Positions 3,032 to 22,604 of a stretch of DNA of 24,703 bases are shown here, one piece after another. The stretch is from the IMG/VR virus record IMGVR_UViG_3300028560_000009, positions 1 through 24,703 of that record; one strand, 5' to 3'. Each line of letters opens with the position of its first letter. Within the stretch, counting starts at the first letter, position 1. Origin of the DNA: a virus. Under the pieces are notes generated by a model. The model was not told the DNA's origin. It did no database searches and was given only the letters and a program-made list of their open reading frames with translations. A program made the translations under genes and the position numbers.

Positions 3032-3162
3032 TTCTTCCCCTCCTCGAAATCCCGCTCCATCCGATGAATCGCCCACATCGCGCCCGCCCACATCGCGACG
3101 AAGACGGCCAGCTCAATCCAAATCGCCGTGGTAAACACTGGCGGACATACTGCGTGCCTCAT
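3028..3162 (-). CDS. 44-aa single-pass membrane protein
   Basis: A 44-codon frame begins MRHAVCPPVFTTAIWIELAV with a hydrophobic stretch at about residues 9-30 and a charged end (RMERDFEEGKK). The pattern predicts one inner-membrane helix with a charged tail. The ribosome site GGGAGG lies 6 bases before the ATG. It overlaps genes on both sides by four bases (ATGA), which strongly supports translation. Such micro-proteins are frequent in the nin-like segment of phage operons; the role is unknown. Confidence 0.65.
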   Translation of the reverse strand: MRHAVCPPVFTTAIWIELAVFVAMWAGAMWAIHRMERDFEEGKK

Positions 3163-3503
3163 ACAACCTCCCGCAACATCAATTCCAGCCGCGCCAGCGC
3201 GTTCCATGCGAGGTGCGCCTGATGGGCAATACCCGAATCGGCATCAACCGGTTCGAACGTCTCTTTGAGACGGTGGCGATCCATAGCGGCGGTGTAGCGC
3301 TTGATTCCATCCGGCACAGCCTGCCAGCCGCCCTCTGTGTATTTCGCGGCGCCGAACGTGGCTACCTGGGCGACCGCCAGCAGCGCGCGCGGCATGCCGG
3401 ACAGGATCAGGTCTGGCCGTACCTTGCCTGCGTCCAACTTTGCGCCGGGCTGGTGCTGATCGGTGCCAGTCGGGTCAACCTCCTGCTGATTGCTTTGCTC
3501 CAC
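3159..3503 (-). CDS. dATP/dGTP diphosphohydrolase-like protein (DUF5664/MazG-like)
   Basis: A 114-aa protein with the family core KLDAGKVRPDLILSGMPRAL, then ATFGAAKYTEGGWQ, RYTAAMDRH and a helix containing HLAWNALARLELML. This matches the N-terminal region of phage dATP/dGTP pyrophosphohydrolase-like proteins (DUF5664), all-alpha MazG-like NTP pyrophosphatases that alter the nucleotide pool during infection. Starts at GTG with GGGGAG about 9 bases upstream. It overlaps the preceding gene by 29 bases and the next by four. The catalytic role is inferred from the family; the protein is about the length of the single-domain members. Confidence 0.75.
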   Translation of the reverse strand: MEQSNQQEVDPTGTDQHQPGAKLDAGKVRPDLILSGMPRALLAVAQVATFGAAKYTEGGWQAVPDGIKRYTAAMDRHRLKETFEPVDADSGIAHQAHLAWNALARLELMLREVV

Positions 3504-3660
3504 TTAATGCACTCCCCTTTGCTTGTTCCGATGTATCAAACCGCCCGATAAACTTCGGCCAGCACCACAATTCGAAATATTCCGGGTCGCCCATCGGATA
3601 TCGAAAAATCCGCCAGGCGCCGGACTCGATACACAGATCCGTCACCCGGTGCCAGATCAC
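3475..3660 (-). CDS. Hypothetical 61-aa Trp-rich phage protein
   Basis: A 61-aa frame starts at GTG, overlapping the stop of the micro-protein before it. The sequence is aromatic-rich (MIWHRVTDLCIESGAWRIFR, then EYFELWCWPKFIGRF) with a polar tail, and looks like a small globular beta-rich domain. It overlaps the pyrophosphohydrolase-like gene downstream by 29 bases. The codon pattern and tight packing support a real gene; the family is not recognised. Confidence 0.6.
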   Translation of the reverse strand: MIWHRVTDLCIESGAWRIFRYPMGDPEYFELWCWPKFIGRFDTSEQAKGSALSGAKQSAGG

Positions 3661-15147: not shown

Positions 15148-15807
15148 ATGGGCATCACCACATTCATCCTTGGCGAGCCCGGGACCGGGAAGTCGGCAAG
15201 CATGCGCAATATGCCGCCCGAAGAGACGCTGCTGATTCAGTGCATCAAGAAGCCGCTTCCGTTCCGCTCCGCAACGTGGAAGCTGTTCAACCGCGAGAGC
15301 TGCAAAACGGGAAACATTTTCGTGACGGATGACTATCAAAAAATCATCGAGCTGATGCAAAAAACGTCGCGCAAACGGGTCGTCATCGACGATTACCAGT
15401 ACCTGATGTGCAACGAATTTATGCGCCGTACCGACGAGCGCGGATTCGATAAGTTCTCGGAGATCGGGCATCACGCATGGAAAGTCATCATGGATGCTGC
15501 GGATCTGCCTGACGATGTTCGGGTCTATGTCCTGTGCCACACCGACACGTCGTCGGACGGCATGACGAAGATCAAGACCATCGGGAAGATGCTCGATGAG
15601 AAAGTCTCCCTGGACGGCATGGTAACCATCTGCCTGCGCACGAAGGTTATGGATGGCCAGTTCCACTTTACGACCCGGAACAGCGGGTTCGACACCGTCA
15701 AGTCGCCAATGGGTTTGTTTGACGCCGCGATGATCGACAACGACCTGGAGGCGGTCGACGCCGCCATCTGTAATTACTACGGGATCGGCCAAGCTGCCGC
15801 CGCCTGA
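15148..15807 (+). CDS. Sak4-like RecA-fold ATPase (phage recombinase)
   Basis: A 219-aa P-loop ATPase. Walker A is GEPGTGKS at residues 9-16 and Walker B is VVIDDYQYL at 78-86. Later come VYVLCHTDTS and a KTIGKMLDEKVSLDGMV segment, as in phage nucleotide-binding proteins of the AAA_24/Sak4 group. Sak4 proteins are single-domain RecA-like phage recombinases that promote strand annealing with a partner SSB. The next gene codes an SSB-like protein, which fits that pairing well. Ribosome site GAGGACATAAGCC before the ATG. Alternative: an ATPase of the same fold with another DNA role. Confidence 0.8.
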   Translation: MGITTFILGEPGTGKSASMRNMPPEETLLIQCIKKPLPFRSATWKLFNRESCKTGNIFVTDDYQKIIELMQKTSRKRVVIDDYQYLMCNEFMRRTDERGFDKFSEIGHHAWKVIMDAADLPDDVRVYVLCHTDTSSDGMTKIKTIGKMLDEKVSLDGMVTICLRTKVMDGQFHFTTRNSGFDTVKSPMGLFDAAMIDNDLEAVDAAICNYYGIGQAAAA

Positions 15808-15824: not shown

Positions 15825-16541
15825 ATGGCTTTTCGCACCCTGAACGCGGAATCGGCGCGCGCCGCCGACAACCGCCAGTCCGGCATTACGCAGCCGGGTA
15901 AATTTGTTGGCACCTTGCTGGTGGCTGAATACGTCCAGAAGACGACGTCCAGCGGGATTTCGTTTTCGTTCAAGACCACGACAGGGCAAGAAGCTCGCTG
16001 GTATAGCAATCTGACATACGAAGACAAGAGCACTCACCAGCCGACCGACAATGAGGGCGGCTTTCAAGAGCTGGATTCGTTGATGGCCTGTCTGCGACTG
16101 CGCGATCTGCCGGACCCGGTAATGGGCGAAATCGAGAAATGGGACGCCGCATCTCAGTCCCGTCAGCTTGTTCGGGCTCCGCTGCTGGCGGCGTTGATGG
16201 GCAAGCCGATTGGCGCCCTCTTCCGCATGGAAGAGTATCTGTCTGACAGCGGTGAAGTGAAAGAAAAAGCCCTGTTCGACACCTGGTTCTCGCCGTCGGA
16301 TGAAAAGATCGCTTCCGAAGTGCTGGACGGGGACAAATGCAAAGAGCCGAAGCGGCTGGCTGCCCGTGTTGACTGGATCGCGGCAAACCCCGTCAAGCGC
16401 CTCAAGGGTGGCAGCGCCAGTAAGGTTTCCCCGCCGGGGCGCCGTGAACAGCCTCAACCGAAGAAATATAACGACATCGACGACGATATACCATTTTCCC
16501 CGATCGGGCTTGAAAACCGCGTCATTATTCACTGCATTTAA
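15825..16541 (+). CDS. SSB-like single-strand DNA-binding protein
   Basis: A 238-aa protein. The N-terminal 65 residues (GKFVGTLLVAEYVQKTTSSG, then FSFKTTTGQEARWYSNLTYE) are beta-rich with aromatics, as expected of an OB-like fold. The C-terminal third is a Pro/Gln/Lys linker leading to the acidic tip DDDIPF at 219-224, the hallmark of bacterial and phage SSB tails that recruit repair enzymes. Here 14 more residues (to IIHCI) follow the tip, which is unusual. It starts 17 bases after the Sak4-like gene, with GGAG upstream. Its partner role is inferred from the Sak4-SSB pairing. Confidence 0.65.
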   Translation: MAFRTLNAESARAADNRQSGITQPGKFVGTLLVAEYVQKTTSSGISFSFKTTTGQEARWYSNLTYEDKSTHQPTDNEGGFQELDSLMACLRLRDLPDPVMGEIEKWDAASQSRQLVRAPLLAALMGKPIGALFRMEEYLSDSGEVKEKALFDTWFSPSDEKIASEVLDGDKCKEPKRLAARVDWIAANPVKRLKGGSASKVSPPGRREQPQPKKYNDIDDDIPFSPIGLENRVIIHCI

Positions 16542-17269: not shown

Positions 17270-18436
17270 ATGGAACAACCCGAACAAACCGGCGTCGCCC
17301 TGGTCGAGCCGGCCGAGATCGCATCGCGCGATCTGCTAACCATCGACCCGGTGACCTACGTCACCGCCGTCTATGCCGGCCATCACACGGCGCTGGCGCT
17401 GGCTATCGCAGCCATTCCGGCAGAGATCGACGTCACCACCCCGGCGGGCTACAAGCTGGCGACGACCCATCGCGCGACGTTCAAGGGTATTCGCACAGGC
17501 GCCAACGCCACGCGCCAGCAGCGCAAAGCACCGATCCTCGAAATCGGCAAACTGATTGACTCGCACTATAAGGCGCTGGAGGCCGAGGTTACGCCGTACG
17601 AAGCCCGGTTCGACGCCCTCATCAAAGACGAAGATGCGCGTAAAGAGGCCATCAAAGCCGAGAAAGCGCGCATCGAAGCCGAGCGCATCGACGCCATTAA
17701 ATTCCGAATCGACGCATTCGGACTGGTGGCGCTGGACTGCATCGGCAAGTCGGCGGAACACATTCAGGGCGCAATCGAGACAGTCACGGCAGTCGAGATC
17801 GACGCGAGCTTCGAAGAATTTACCACCACCGCCGCGTCAGCCAAGCAATCCGCGCTCGAAAAACTGGATCTGGCGCTGACCAGCGCCAAGGAGGCCGAAG
17901 CCGAGCAGGCTCGGGCCAAGGCGGAACGCGACGAATTTGAGCGCCAGCGCAAGCAGCAAGCGGCCGACGCCGCCGCCCTTGCTGCCGAGCGCAAGCGACT
18001 GGCTGACGAGCGCGCAGAGCAGGAGCGCAAAGCCAAGATCCAACGCGACGCAGAGTCTGCGGCTATTGCAGAAGAACGCCGGAAGCTGGGCGCGGCCCGG
18101 GTCGAGCAAGAGCGTGCAGCCAAGACTCAGGCCGACGCCCTCGCAGCTCAACAGGCTGAAATCAAGCGGCAGCAGGACGAACTGGCTGCCCTGCCGAAGC
18201 CGGCGCCGGTTGTCGTTGAAGCCGCACCCGCACCGATTGCGGTTGTGCCGCCCAAGCTCACGTCAGTGGCAACGGCGCCCGCACCAGCCCCGCTCCGCGA
18301 CGACCCCGAGCACATCAAGCTCATGCTCGACCTGATCGAATCCATCAGGGACGGCAGCAACATTCACCGCGAACGTGCCATCAAGAATGCCGAAGCCTTT
18401 ATCGCATCGGCGCGCGCACAGCAGGAGGCCGCATGA
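17270..18436 (+). CDS. Long coiled-coil phage protein, 388 aa
   Basis: Starts at the ATG at 17270, past the terminator; a longer open frame upstream overlaps the exonuclease gene. An N-terminal globular part (about 1-95) includes KLATTHRATFKGIRTGANAT. A long charged coiled coil follows (about 95-310), rich in Glu/Ala/Arg/Lys (RAKAERDEFERQRKQQAADA). A Pro/Ala/Val linker and a C-terminal helical domain (EHIKLMLDLIESIRDGSNIH) complete it. Composition resembles TolA-like sequences, but no signal or membrane segment is seen, so it is probably cytoplasmic. It is coupled by ATGA to rdgC, suggesting a DNA-metabolism partner. Family not named. Confidence 0.75.
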   Translation: MEQPEQTGVALVEPAEIASRDLLTIDPVTYVTAVYAGHHTALALAIAAIPAEIDVTTPAGYKLATTHRATFKGIRTGANATRQQRKAPILEIGKLIDSHYKALEAEVTPYEARFDALIKDEDARKEAIKAEKARIEAERIDAIKFRIDAFGLVALDCIGKSAEHIQGAIETVTAVEIDASFEEFTTTAASAKQSALEKLDLALTSAKEAEAEQARAKAERDEFERQRKQQAADAAALAAERKRLADERAEQERKAKIQRDAESAAIAEERRKLGAARVEQERAAKTQADALAAQQAEIKRQQDELAALPKPAPVVVEAAPAPIAVVPPKLTSVATAPAPAPLRDDPEHIKLMLDLIESIRDGSNIHRERAIKNAEAFIASARAQQEAA

Positions 18437-19335
18437 CCTGGTTCAAACAACTTTCAATTTTCCGCCTGTCCGCCCCGGTCGACGGCGCGGCATTGTCCGA
18501 ACGCCTGGATAAAGCGCCGTTCGCCAAATGCGCCGGACTGGACTGGTTTACCGAGGGCTGGGTCTGGCCGGCAAGCCACGTCGGCAGCCCGGTATTCAAG
18601 GCCCGCGACTGCCTGCTGGTCTCGCTCAAGCGCGAAGACAAGGTTCTGCCGGTAGTGACGATCCGCGCAGCCGTCGATGAAAAGGCGCTGGAGATCGAAC
18701 AGCGCGACCATCGCGGCATTGGCCACAAGGAAAAGCAGGCATTAAAAGAACAGGTGACCGATGACCTGCTACCGAAAGCCTTCACCCGGGAAGGCCGCCT
18801 GAACGCCTACATCGACAATCGCCGCAGATGGCTGATGGTCGACACGTCCACATCCAGCAAGGCGGAAGCGCTGGTCAGCAAACTGCGTGAGGCTCTGCCG
18901 CCGTTCCCGGCTGCCTTGCCCCGCGCCAAGTTTGCCCCGCACACCGCCATGACCGATTGGCTGGCCGCGGGCGAAGCGCCAGAAGGTTTTGAGCTGGATG
19001 CCGAAGTCGAGCTGCGCGACCCGAGCGAAAACGGTGCGGTAATCCGCTGCGTTCGCATGGATCTGACCTCTGATGAAATTCGCCAGCACATCGCCACCGG
19101 CAAGCAGGTTACGAAGCTCGGATTGATCTGGAACGAGCGCGTGCGCTTTGTGCTGACCGACACGCTGCAGCTCAAGCGCATTCAGTTCCTCGATGTCCTG
19201 CAGGATGAAGCCAGTCAGGCTGGCGACGACAGCGCCAGCCTGTTTGAGGCCACGCTTACGCTGATGGTCGAGGAGCTGGGCGACCTGGTTGATGGGCTGA
19301 TCGAGGCACTCGGCGGATTGGATGCGGCTGGATGA
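18433..19335 (+). CDS. rdgC: RdgC recombination-associated protein
   Basis: A 300-aa protein matching RdgC across its length: start MTWFKQLSIFRLSAPVDGAA, then GWVWPASHVGSPVFKARDCL, VLPVVTIRAAVDEKALEIEQ, KAFTREGRLNAYIDNRRRWL and a C-terminal domain with VTKLGLIWNERVRFVLTD. RdgC forms a ring-shaped dimer that encircles double-stranded DNA and restrains RecA. A phage copy would modulate host RecA or protect replicating phage DNA. The length equals the bacterial family (about 300 aa). It overlaps the coiled-coil gene by four bases. Few phages carry it, so it was probably acquired from a host. Confidence 0.9.
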   Translation: MTWFKQLSIFRLSAPVDGAALSERLDKAPFAKCAGLDWFTEGWVWPASHVGSPVFKARDCLLVSLKREDKVLPVVTIRAAVDEKALEIEQRDHRGIGHKEKQALKEQVTDDLLPKAFTREGRLNAYIDNRRRWLMVDTSTSSKAEALVSKLREALPPFPAALPRAKFAPHTAMTDWLAAGEAPEGFELDAEVELRDPSENGAVIRCVRMDLTSDEIRQHIATGKQVTKLGLIWNERVRFVLTDTLQLKRIQFLDVLQDEASQAGDDSASLFEATLTLMVEELGDLVDGLIEALGGLDAAG

Positions 19336-19696: not shown

Positions 19697-20308
19697 ATGC
19701 AAAAAGCAATCGCAGCACATCTTATCCCGACCGAACTGCTGACCCCGTTCGAAGGCGGCTTCTTCGCCGGACTGTTCAAGCAAGGCGGCGAGACCCGCGC
19801 CCTGATCGTTTCCGGGAAAGAAGGCAATCTCGAAGGCGTGTGGGGCGAATACGGACAAGACGTTTCCGGTGCCCGCAGCTACACCGATGGTCTGGCCAAT
19901 ACCATCGCCATGGCCGAGGCTGGCAGCGAACTGGCCAAGCAGGCGCTGATGCTGGAAATCGGCGGATTTACTGACTGGGCCATCCCGGCACGTGACCAGC
20001 TGGAGCTGCTATACCGCCATTTCAAACCGACCACGCGTGCCAATTCGTGCTCGTTCCGCGACGGCGACAACACTTCCAGCCTTCCGCTCGGCTACCCGTA
20101 CACGGAGCAGTCCCCGACACAGACCGCTATCGAAGGCTTCCGTGAGGGCGATGAGCACGCCTTGCAGGCCGAGTGGTACTGGGCATCAACGCAGTTTTCG
20201 TCCAGCCGCGCCTGGATTCAGAGTTTCACCGGTGGCGGCACAACCAGCACCACTAAGGAAAATGAGGCGCGGGTGCGCGCCGTCCGCACGATTCACATCA
20301 TCCATTAA
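19697..20308 (+). CDS. DUF1566 C-type-lectin-like protein 1 (DGR variable-protein type)
   Basis: A 203-aa protein starting at the first ATG after the terminator (19697); no clear ribosome site is present. The C-terminal half is a DUF1566/Lcl-type lectin fold: GGFTDWAIPARDQLELLYRH at about 89-108, GYPYTEQSPTQTAIEGF, then WYWASTQFSSSRAWIQSF and ENEARVRAVRTI at 160-199. This C-terminal block is the position of the variable repeat in diversity-generating retroelement (DGR) target proteins. A second, related gene and an Avd-like gene follow. No reverse transcriptase is present, so diversification is probably lost. Secretion signals are absent; it may be virion-associated or act in the cell. Confidence 0.75.
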   Translation: MQKAIAAHLIPTELLTPFEGGFFAGLFKQGGETRALIVSGKEGNLEGVWGEYGQDVSGARSYTDGLANTIAMAEAGSELAKQALMLEIGGFTDWAIPARDQLELLYRHFKPTTRANSCSFRDGDNTSSLPLGYPYTEQSPTQTAIEGFREGDEHALQAEWYWASTQFSSSRAWIQSFTGGGTTSTTKENEARVRAVRTIHIIH

Positions 20309-20324
20309 GTCATTTTTCAATTTA

Positions 20325-20351
20325 ACCCGGCGCCAGCCGGGTTTGCCTTTT
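20325..20351 (+). terminator. Hairpin between DUF1566 genes
   Basis: ACCCGGC-GCCA-GCCGGGT stem-loop then TTGCCTTTT, 16 bases after the stop. It works as a terminator; it also sits where DGR targets carry a post-variable-repeat hairpin. Confidence 0.6.
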
Positions 20352-20364
20352 CAGGAGTAAACGA

Positions 20365-20955
20365 ATGGGATCGAAATTCGAGTTGTCCATCCAGAACTTG
20401 ACCATCAATTTTGCGCCAGCCGACGCAAGCACCGCCGAACCTCGGCAAAGCCAAGCAGCTATATTTACATCGCACATGGGGCGCACGCCGCTCCCTGGCG
20501 AACTCTGGCCGGGACAAGGCGGAAAAAACGCCGGGCTGATCGTGCCACCCGACGGGTCGCGTCCGTATTACGTGATCGTCGCCGAGCATCCGGATGGCCA
20601 GATTGCGAAAATCGCTTGGGGCGGTTACGGCAAAGACGAACCGGGGGCGAAAAGCCACTGGGATGGATGGGCCAATGCCAAGGCATTGGTTGAATCGGAG
20701 CACGAACATCCGGCGGCGGAATGGGCCCGAGGCCTCGTCATCGACGGCCTCAGCGATTTCTACCTCCCGGCGCGGCGCGAGCTGGCGCTGGTGGAAATCA
20801 ACATGGCGGCGCTGTTTCCGAAGGGCTGGTATCTCACCAGCACGCAGTACAGCCCGAGCAGCGCATACGACCAGGTCTTCGCTGATGGCAGCCCATACCA
20901 CATCAGCAAGGACTACGAGGTGCGCGCGCTGGCCGTCCGCAGATTGTTCATTTAG
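20365..20955 (+). CDS. DUF1566 C-type-lectin-like protein 2 (DGR variable-protein type)
   Basis: A 196-aa paralogue with AGGAGTAAACGA before the ATG. The N-terminal 45 residues are unlike those of the first copy (MGSKFELSIQNLTINFAPAD). The lectin-like part aligns with it: IAWGGYGKDEPGAKSHWDGW, DFYLPARRELALVEINMAAL at about 131-150, and a variable-repeat-like end GWYLTSTQYSPSSAYDQVF then YEVRALAVRR at 154-193. The many Tyr/Ser/Ala/Asp codons in this end are what adenine mutagenesis yields in DGR targets. Both genes are followed by CATCCATT(T)AAG and a GC hairpin, supporting tandem duplication. Confidence 0.75.
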   Translation: MGSKFELSIQNLTINFAPADASTAEPRQSQAAIFTSHMGRTPLPGELWPGQGGKNAGLIVPPDGSRPYYVIVAEHPDGQIAKIAWGGYGKDEPGAKSHWDGWANAKALVESEHEHPAAEWARGLVIDGLSDFYLPARRELALVEINMAALFPKGWYLTSTQYSPSSAYDQVFADGSPYHISKDYEVRALAVRRLFI

Positions 20956-20971
20956 CACTTCATCCATTTAA

Positions 20972-20997
20972 GCGCGGGCTCGCCCGCGCAGGTTTTG
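20972..20997 (+). terminator. GC-rich hairpin after second DUF1566 gene
   Basis: GCGCGGG-CTCG-CCCGCGC perfect 7-bp stem with a tetraloop, followed by AGGTTTTG. The T run is poor for a terminator. DGR target genes need a GC hairpin or cruciform just after the variable repeat, and this has that place and shape. Confidence 0.55.
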
Positions 20998-21001
20998 ACT
21001 T

Positions 21002-21335
21002 ATGTCTTTGCATTCCGAATTGCCGATCTACAAGGTGACCTACGACCTCACCATTTTAGTCAAAAAGCTTGCCAGTCAATTCCCGCGCAATTACCGCGAC
21101 CACGGGAAGCGGCTGGACGGCGAATGCTTGGAGCTTGTTGTCTTGATCTATCGCGCCAATTCGGCGCGTGGTTGACATCGATAAAGTCGACCTGTTTGAA
21201 ACGGCAAATTCGTACTTCGGATTGCTCGGTCAGGCGACGAACAGCCATCACGACCGGTGCAGACTGGCCAATGCACTGCGGCGACGCGGGCGGTCAATCA
21301 GTTTGGACATACGCAAGACTTACCGAAAACCCTGA
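21002..21335 (+). pseudogene. Avd-like four-helix-bundle protein, frameshifted
   Basis: Frame 21002-21175 gives 57 aa: MSLHSELPIYKVTYDLTILV, then KKLASQFPRNYRDHGKRLDG and ECLELVVLIYRANSARG. This is the front half of the Avd/four-helix-bundle family (the 'LPIYK..YDL...FPR.....G..L..E..ELV..IYRAN' pattern). It ends at a TGA. The next frame continues from about 21168 as VVDIDKVDLFETANSYFGLL and stays open to a stop at 21333-21335 with an Arg-rich end. Together they give the usual ~110 aa, so one single-base shift near 21160-21168 explains it. Avd is the accessory protein that binds the DGR reverse transcriptase. It directly follows two DUF1566 genes. Confidence 0.7.
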
Positions 21336-21689: not shown

Positions 21690-22604
21690 ATGAAAGCAAT
21701 CGACCTGTTCGCCGGCGCTGGAGGCTTCAGCACCGGCGCCCGCATGGCCGGCATCGATGTCGTCTGGGCCGCAAACCACTGGCAATCGGCGGTTGAGATT
21801 CACGAAGCCAATCATCCGGGCGCGCGGCATGCCTGCCAAGACCTGCATCAGGCGCGGTGGATGGAAGTGCCGGCACATGACCTGCTGATGGCAAGCCCTT
21901 GCTGCCAAGGCCACAGCAAAGCCCGCGGCAAAGAGCACGGCAACCCACAGCACGATGCCAGCCGCTCGACAGCCTGGGCAGTCGTCTCTGCCGCCGAGTA
22001 CCACCGTCCGCAGTTCTGCATCATCGAAAATGTGCCTGAATTTGTGCAGTGGTCACTGTACCCAGCATGGCGTATGGCCATGGAAGCGCTGGGCTACTGC
22101 CTGTCTCCGCATATCGTTGACGCTGCTGACCATGGTGTACCGCAGAACCGTGAGCGGCTTTTTATCGTCGGCACGCGCAGTCAGTACCCGCTGATGCTCA
22201 ACCTGCCACAGCGTGAGCACGTCCCAGTGTCCGGCATCATCGACTTCGACGGCGGGAAGTGGTCGCAGATCGAGAAGCCCGGGCGAGCCGCTGCGACACT
22301 GGAGCGGATCGAGAACGGGCGCCGGCAGCACGGTGAGCGGTTCTTGACGGCGTACTACGGCAACGAGCGCGGCGGCCGGAGCATCGCCCGCCCGATCGGC
22401 ACGATCACCACCCGAGATCGATGGGGGATTGTCGACGGCGACCGGATGCGCATGCTCAGTGTGCAAGAGGCCAGGGCGGCGATGGGATTCCCTGCCGATT
22501 ACATCCTGCCGGAAACTTCAAAGTTGGCCATGCACATGCTCGGCAATGCAGTCTGCCCGCCGGTCGCGCGGGATGTAATTCAGGCGATGCTGGTGGCGGC
22601 GTGA
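21690..22604 (+). CDS. DNA cytosine-5 methyltransferase
   Basis: A 304-aa enzyme with the ordered C5-methyltransferase motifs: I, DLFAGAGGFSTG (5-16); IV, ASPCCQGHSKARG with catalytic Cys at 72; VI, IIENVPEF (112-119); VIII, QNRERLFIVG (152-161); and X, MLGNAVCPPVARDVI near the end. It transfers a methyl group from S-adenosylmethionine to C5 of cytosine. Motif IV reads PCCQ instead of PPCQ, a variant like the PACQG form in many phage enzymes. No partner restriction nuclease lies beside it, so it probably protects phage DNA from host restriction. The target site cannot be read from sequence. Short for the family, with a compact recognition domain. Confidence 0.9.
   Translation: MKAIDLFAGAGGFSTGARMAGIDVVWAANHWQSAVEIHEANHPGARHACQDLHQARWMEVPAHDLLMASPCCQGHSKARGKEHGNPQHDASRSTAWAVVSAAEYHRPQFCIIENVPEFVQWSLYPAWRMAMEALGYCLSPHIVDAADHGVPQNRERLFIVGTRSQYPLMLNLPQREHVPVSGIIDFDGGKWSQIEKPGRAAATLERIENGRRQHGERFLTAYYGNERGGRSIARPIGTITTRDRWGIVDGDRMRMLSVQEARAAMGFPADYILPETSKLAMHMLGNAVCPPVARDVIQAMLVAA

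Follow-up and report, generated by a model that had tools for sequence, protein, structure and literature searches.

The window analysed here, the whole of a 24,703-nt viral record (24.7 kb of phage DNA), carries two successive genes whose products have the DUF1566/Lcl_C lectin fold, each ending in a variable repeat (VR) and each followed by a GC hairpin. Downstream of them lie the first half of an avd gene and, in another frame, the last codons of a reverse transcriptase (RT) gene (table 1). The cassette stands beside recombination genes, and the DNA that flanks it is about 80% identical to the DNA just 5' of the intact DGRs in the contigs L003 and L060. A scan of the window against Rfam gave no match. 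On the minus strand, at 3162-3503, the window also encodes a protein that matches phrog_5033 ("endolysin; inhibits RNA polymerase", E=3e-45), a label that is doubtful because the protein also matches the dATP/dGTP pyrophosphohydrolase phrog_801 (3e-27).

An initial annotation, made from the sequence alone, had proposed two paralogous DUF1566 proteins with VR-like ends and a GC hairpin behind each, and all of these features are present. Both proteins match phrog_4245 and PF07603 (the latter below cut-off for target 2), and their predicted structures are lectin-like (AF2 pLDDT of 90 for target 1). For both models the best solved-structure match, and the first in Foldseek, is the C-terminal domain of Legionella Lcl (8q4e; E=3.5e-4 for target 1, E=1.4e-3 and prob 1.00 for target 2). 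Target 2 is 73% identical to target 2 of the contigs L060/L061. The hairpins lie 18-19 nt past the stop codons of the targets; a comparable hairpin lies no more than 60 nt past the stop at 146 of 283 targets of RT-positive relatives, against 11 in shuffled sequence. Hairpins behind the VR are needed for homing in BPP-1, and phage DGRs have GRNA loops (PMC3240598). The 7-8 bp stems of the window fall within the range given in that work, and the loops are GCCA and CTCG rather than GRNA.

Table 1. Features of the cassette and its surroundings in the window, and HNH genes that stand in the place of the RT in related loci (locus: position)
Feature	Position	Strand	Evidence or remark
Sak4-like annealing protein gene	15148-15807		near cassette
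SSB gene	15825-16541		near cassette
Recombination-associated exonuclease gene, phrog_724	18433..19335	+	phrog_724 E=8e-87; syntenic, upstream of cassette
Target gene 1, DUF1566/Lcl_C lectin fold	19697..20308	+	PF07603 3e-9; phrog_4245 4e-32
Variable repeat 1, decayed or decoupled	20189..20288	+	best relative TR is that of L030
GC hairpin after target 1	20324..20343	+	8-bp stem, 4-nt loop; DGR target-site position
Target gene 2, DUF1566/Lcl_C lectin fold	20365..20955	+	phrog_4245 3e-23; PF07603 0.008, below cut-off
Variable repeat 2, adenine-mutagenesis fingerprint	20842..20945	+	compared with L060/L061 TR
GC hairpin after target 2	20972..20989	+	7-bp stem, 4-nt loop
Truncated avd	21002..21175	+	57 aa, stop just past junction; phrog_3206 E=1.8e-9
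Deletion junction Avd::RT	21161..21172	+	aligned base by base to avd and RT of L060, L003
RT C-terminus remnant, last ~55 codons	21162..21335	+	RT-profile match, identity to relatives' RTs
DNA methyltransferase gene	21690-22604		other flank of cassette
HNH gene in RT place	L019:6584-7160		
HNH gene in RT place	L066:7587-8160		
HNH gene in RT place	L200:6587-7160		
HNH gene in RT place	L071:6870-7437		
HNH gene in RT place	L187:2401-2923		
HNH gene in RT place	L017:6467-7214		
HNH gene in RT place	L131:6472-7096		
HNH gene in RT place	L081:7940-8559		
HNH gene in RT place	L136:7226-7947		
HNH gene in RT place	L083:1517-2364		
HNH gene in RT place	L181:7262-7774		

The Junction between avd and the RT Gene

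The first of the two frames behind the targets had been read as the first half of Avd, and rightly so: it matches phrog_3206 ("Avd protein of DGR") and, with 61 bits, positions 1-57 of the 116 in a profile built from intact relatives, the match to NF033474 (18 bits) lying below the cut-off of that model. The same annotation held that Avd then shifts frame near 21165. The profile searches do not bear this out; Avd is matched over 21002-21172, and the following frame (21162-21332) has no Avd match and corresponds instead to positions 314-370 of the 370 in the RT profile from intact relatives (61 bits). This remnant is 91% identical to the RT of L060/L061, 81% to that of L003, and 59% to that of the Burkholderia phage Magia. 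Because the frame after the break is the C-terminus of the RT, the break is a deletion junction and not a frameshift inside Avd. The window had also been described as free of any RT, which holds for the RT body (an RVT_1 search of the record was negative) and fails for the C-terminal piece. The window thus lacks the intact Avd of a functional DGR, and its "FRAMESHIFTED AVD" is, as judged from these alignments, an Avd::RT fusion scar left by one internal deletion.

The junction can be placed anywhere within 21161-21172, and the overlap of Avd-like and RT-like sequence there would permit a short microhomology. The sequence absent from the window amounts to 1375-1384 bp (~1.38 kb) in L060/L003. 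The junction is identical in the contigs L001/L020/L059 and L002/L021; the two contigs that share it with the window agree with it at 100% of the bases along 10-12 kb, but they could stem from a single site and population and are then not fully independent of it. This identity makes an assembly error unlikely.

Intact Relatives and the Adenine Fingerprint

Relatives with an intact RT have complete dual-target DGRs at the same locus. The order targets-Avd-RT is found in the phages Cruim01 (PP179333), Haboob (OR683404), phPA-G (PP083311), LPPA56 (OR188718), and SC_8 (MT121966), as well as in numerous contigs from IMG/VR and from bacterial genomes; the intact IMG/VR relatives L003, L060, and L061 are syntenic with the window. 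The intact relatives carry one template repeat (TR) of ~100 nt between Avd and the RT, and nearly all of those examined have a single TR and, usually, two VRs that differ from it at adenines only. The paired targets, which had initially been attributed to a local duplication, are how DGRs of this family are normally built. In some 37 loci both targets differ from the TR essentially at adenines alone, the C-, G-, and T-permissive controls being far lower. When 277 VRs from 138 loci were pooled and compared with their own TRs, differences were found at 3521 of 8565 adenines (41%) and at 77 of 19614 other positions (0.4%). Within near-identical intact pairs the target bodies differ by 0.9% and the VRs by 12%, and hence the DGRs of these relatives appear, from such comparisons, to be active in nature.

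In the window no TR was found, as had been stated earlier: neither VR has an adenine-permissive match outside the targets on either strand. For the TR-VR comparisons, the adenine-permissive scan with C-, G-, and T-permissive controls replaced a loose local alignment that had given over-extended and uninformative results. Since the ancestral TR of the window's own lineage is gone, both VRs were compared with the TRs of relatives. VR2 has the adenine-specific differences of a DGR remnant, departing from the L060/L061 TR at 12 of 35 adenines and at 2 of 69 other positions (p=2.6e-5). Although target 2 outside VR2 is 20% diverged from its relative, the non-adenine positions of VR2 are nearly intact, and VR2 was therefore written by a DGR with nearly the L060/L061 TR. 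The adenine bias of VR1 is weak (16 of 33 adenines and 15 of 67 other positions differ from the L030 TR, p=0.008). VR1 fits no known TR well, and its rewriting may thus have ended earlier, or VR1 may derive from another lineage.

Recurrent Loss of the RT

The 185 distinct target loci divide into 142 with a full RT, 30 that have lost it, and 13 that are too short to judge; in this census, which is biased by the choice of queries, the RT is lost in 30 of the 172 evaluable loci. A piece of the RT, usually the C-terminal tail, is kept in 12 of the 30. On a tree of the target-1 bodies from which the VRs had been removed, the 17 RT-lost loci among 133 rows need 14 changes between the RT-positive and RT-lost states, of which at least 10 are unavoidable given the branches with good support. 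When the full 56-aa RT tail was used as the query, 79 of the 80 matches listed were intact RTs, because truncated tails rank low.

In Pseudomonas sp. PH1b (L130:6478-6765) an HNH-free deletion, similar in kind to that of the window, begins just past the target and reaches RT codon 318. The RT is inactivated in a different manner in L005:2298-2873 and L110:2152-2796, where the TR and the N-terminus of the RT are kept and the RT stops inside the contig after codon ~118 or ~216. The D3-like Pseudomonas phages U9 and PMG1 (L063, L064) and D3 itself encode a shorter DUF1566 target and have neither Avd nor RT in its vicinity, whereas the DGR is complete in Haboob and phPA-G, which are phages of that kind as well.

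HNH Genes in the Place of the RT

Eleven of the 30 RT-lost loci have a gene for an HNH endonuclease directly past the last target or Avd, and in 10 of these 11 (the exception is L181) the retained C-terminus of the RT lies 3' of that gene, in most cases directly adjoining it. Homology to the RT resumes at codons 327-346 in Medea1, Aurca01, L200, L187, D14O, L083, L071, L131, and L081, and at codon 287 in L136, and the left edges of the replacements vary between loci. There are about nine distinct HNH junctions if Medea1, Aurca01, and L200 are counted as one event, and the HNH genes belong to at least two families, one of the NUMOD4/HNH_3 kind and one of the phrog_3377/374 kind. An HNH gene no farther than 1 kb from the last target occurs in 11 of 30 RT-lost loci versus none of 142 intact ones, a comparison whose outcome is in part inevitable, since an intact Avd-TR-RT already occupies that space; its informative part is the order target-HNH-RT tail.

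The HNH gene of Medea1 is 98-100% identical, and the adjoining RT tail 95-100% identical, across loci with unrelated targets or downstream DNA, which fits a mobile gene. One such block of HNH gene and RT tail (95-100% identical) is found in differing target and downstream contexts in L019, L066, L200, and L224-L228, and in L224-L226 it lies directly 3' of a second-type target. The VRs of most HNH-replaced loci match the TR of a relative with 0-1 non-adenine differences, so that either the loss is recent or diversification goes on in trans. The bodies of target 1 in L019 and L200, neither of which has a TR or RT, are 99% identical, against 13 differences in 110 bases between the VRs of the two loci; this could reflect either diversification in trans or the spread of the HNH gene into different parents.

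Discussion

We consider the locus in the window to be the fossil of a dual-target DGR, probably of a temperate phage, that suffered a ~1.38-kb deletion after its first target had become decoupled, a reading to which we assign a probability of about 0.93. It builds on direct observations: the identities of the genes, the junction, the adenine fingerprint, the intact relatives, and the recurrent loss of the RT. The complete relatives and the fingerprint in VR2 give strong support to the initial proposal that a DGR had decayed within a recombination operon. Neither of the outcomes that would speak against it, a lack of any Avd or S23-like match or a DUF1566 pair never linked to RT or Avd, was encountered. 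The ancestor presumably had, like the relatives, two lectin-fold targets, Avd, one ~100-nt TR, and an RT, and error-prone reverse transcription of the TR would have altered adenines at the 3' end of either target, as it does in those relatives. In the lineage of the window, target 1 would have ceased to track the TR before the deletion. A single deletion of ~1.38 kb, perhaps by short microhomology, would then have brought avd codon ~57 and RT codon ~314 together, at the cost of the TR, the RT body, and all of Avd past that codon. This would have frozen target 2 at its last variant, in a cassette without diversification of its own; the loss of activity is inferred, since a co-resident DGR might diversify target 2 in trans.

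Such a non-autonomous target 2, served by the TR and RT of a co-resident DGR phage, is the least improbable of the alternatives, though still unlikely. Target 2 retains its VR 3' end and its hairpin, the non-adenine positions of VR2 are almost intact, the VRs of HNH-replaced relatives match foreign TRs mostly with 0-1 non-adenine differences, and those of Medea1, Aurca01, and L200 differ despite an identical replacement; RT loss with diversification from another DGR has moreover been proposed for Pseudogulbenkiania (PMC3521204). However, VR1 has decayed, and the copies of the HNH gene and RT tail in different contexts allow the spread of the HNH gene to explain the differing VRs. The identity of the VRs in the three contigs of the window population also points away from activity, yet as a test of inactivity it has no power, since those of the intact L060/L061 are identical too. 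The junction might instead be the later state of an HNH invasion in which an HNH gene took the place of the RT body before disappearing itself. We regard this as rather improbable: the edges in L071 (avd codon 62, HNH, RT codon ~325) do lie near the 57/314 of the window, but there is no HNH gene at the window junction and no trace of one in its ambiguous ~10 nt, its RT edge (~311-314) lies upstream of the HNH edges at 327-346, and L130 is likewise an HNH-free deletion. The missing HNH gene and an RT edge upstream of most HNH edges make the window best read as a separate deletion.

It is highly improbable that the contig is an assembly artefact in which an intact DGR has been collapsed. Repeats of ~100 nt such as TR and VR could confuse assemblers, but the junction joins Avd to RT, not TR to VR, it recurs identically in two other contigs, and similar RT-tail remnants are known from isolate phages and bacterial genomes. 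Practically no weight is left for the original version, in which Avd was broken by a simple frameshift and the RT lay elsewhere; the first half is indeed Avd, but the second frame is RT, and the RT match refutes it.

Among the domains of DGR targets DUF1566 has often been reported, and cases with two DUF1566 targets are known (PMC6642488). Phage DGRs with two targets have been described (PMC10743442), and a 2012 study reported truncated DGR RTs as well as RT loss offset by a further copy (PMC3521204). The window resembles the DUF1566/C-type-lectin phage DGRs of the BPP-1 type in its target fold, VR at the 3' end, hairpin behind the VR, Avd next to the target, and adenine signature. It differs from them in having two targets, in lacking the RT body, the TR, and half of Avd, and in being located next to genes for recombination and not within a tail module. 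With Cruim01, Haboob, phPA-G, LPPA56, SC_8, L003, L060, and L061 it shares paired or single DUF1566 targets and the order of Avd and RT, whereas the TR and RT kept there have been lost here. In the DiGReF survey, RTs truncated through transposons, nonsense mutations, or frameshifts (PMC3521204) are also inactivated with their targets retained, but the internal deletion in the window and the HNH replacements in its relatives remove the TR as well. In Medea1, Aurca01, and vB_PaeS-D14O the targets are kept and the RT is reduced to its C-terminal tail, as in the window, but an HNH gene replaces the RT body there.

By itself the window is a further example of known DGR decay, and the pattern of HNH replacement is the newer observation; our literature search found no paper linking homing endonucleases to DGR loss or decay. 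We see an even chance that DGR loss recurs in this phage family in part because homing endonucleases of at least two unrelated HNH families hit a conserved stretch near the C-terminus of the RT, codons 327-346 (TANSYFGLL...SHSxKDR), delete what lies upstream of it, namely the TR and the RT body, and pass between phages together with the RT tail, leaving targets that are frozen or dependent on trans action, with the window as an HNH-free case of such loss. The window can be seen as the scar of a phage that abandoned targeted hypermutation yet kept its hypervariable proteins. The recurrent loss in the family, together with the HNH replacements, is the part worth following: with many independent losses beside intact relatives, the function of the targets without diversification becomes testable, and the same family allows both diversification in trans and the predation of homing endonucleases on DGR RTs to be tested.
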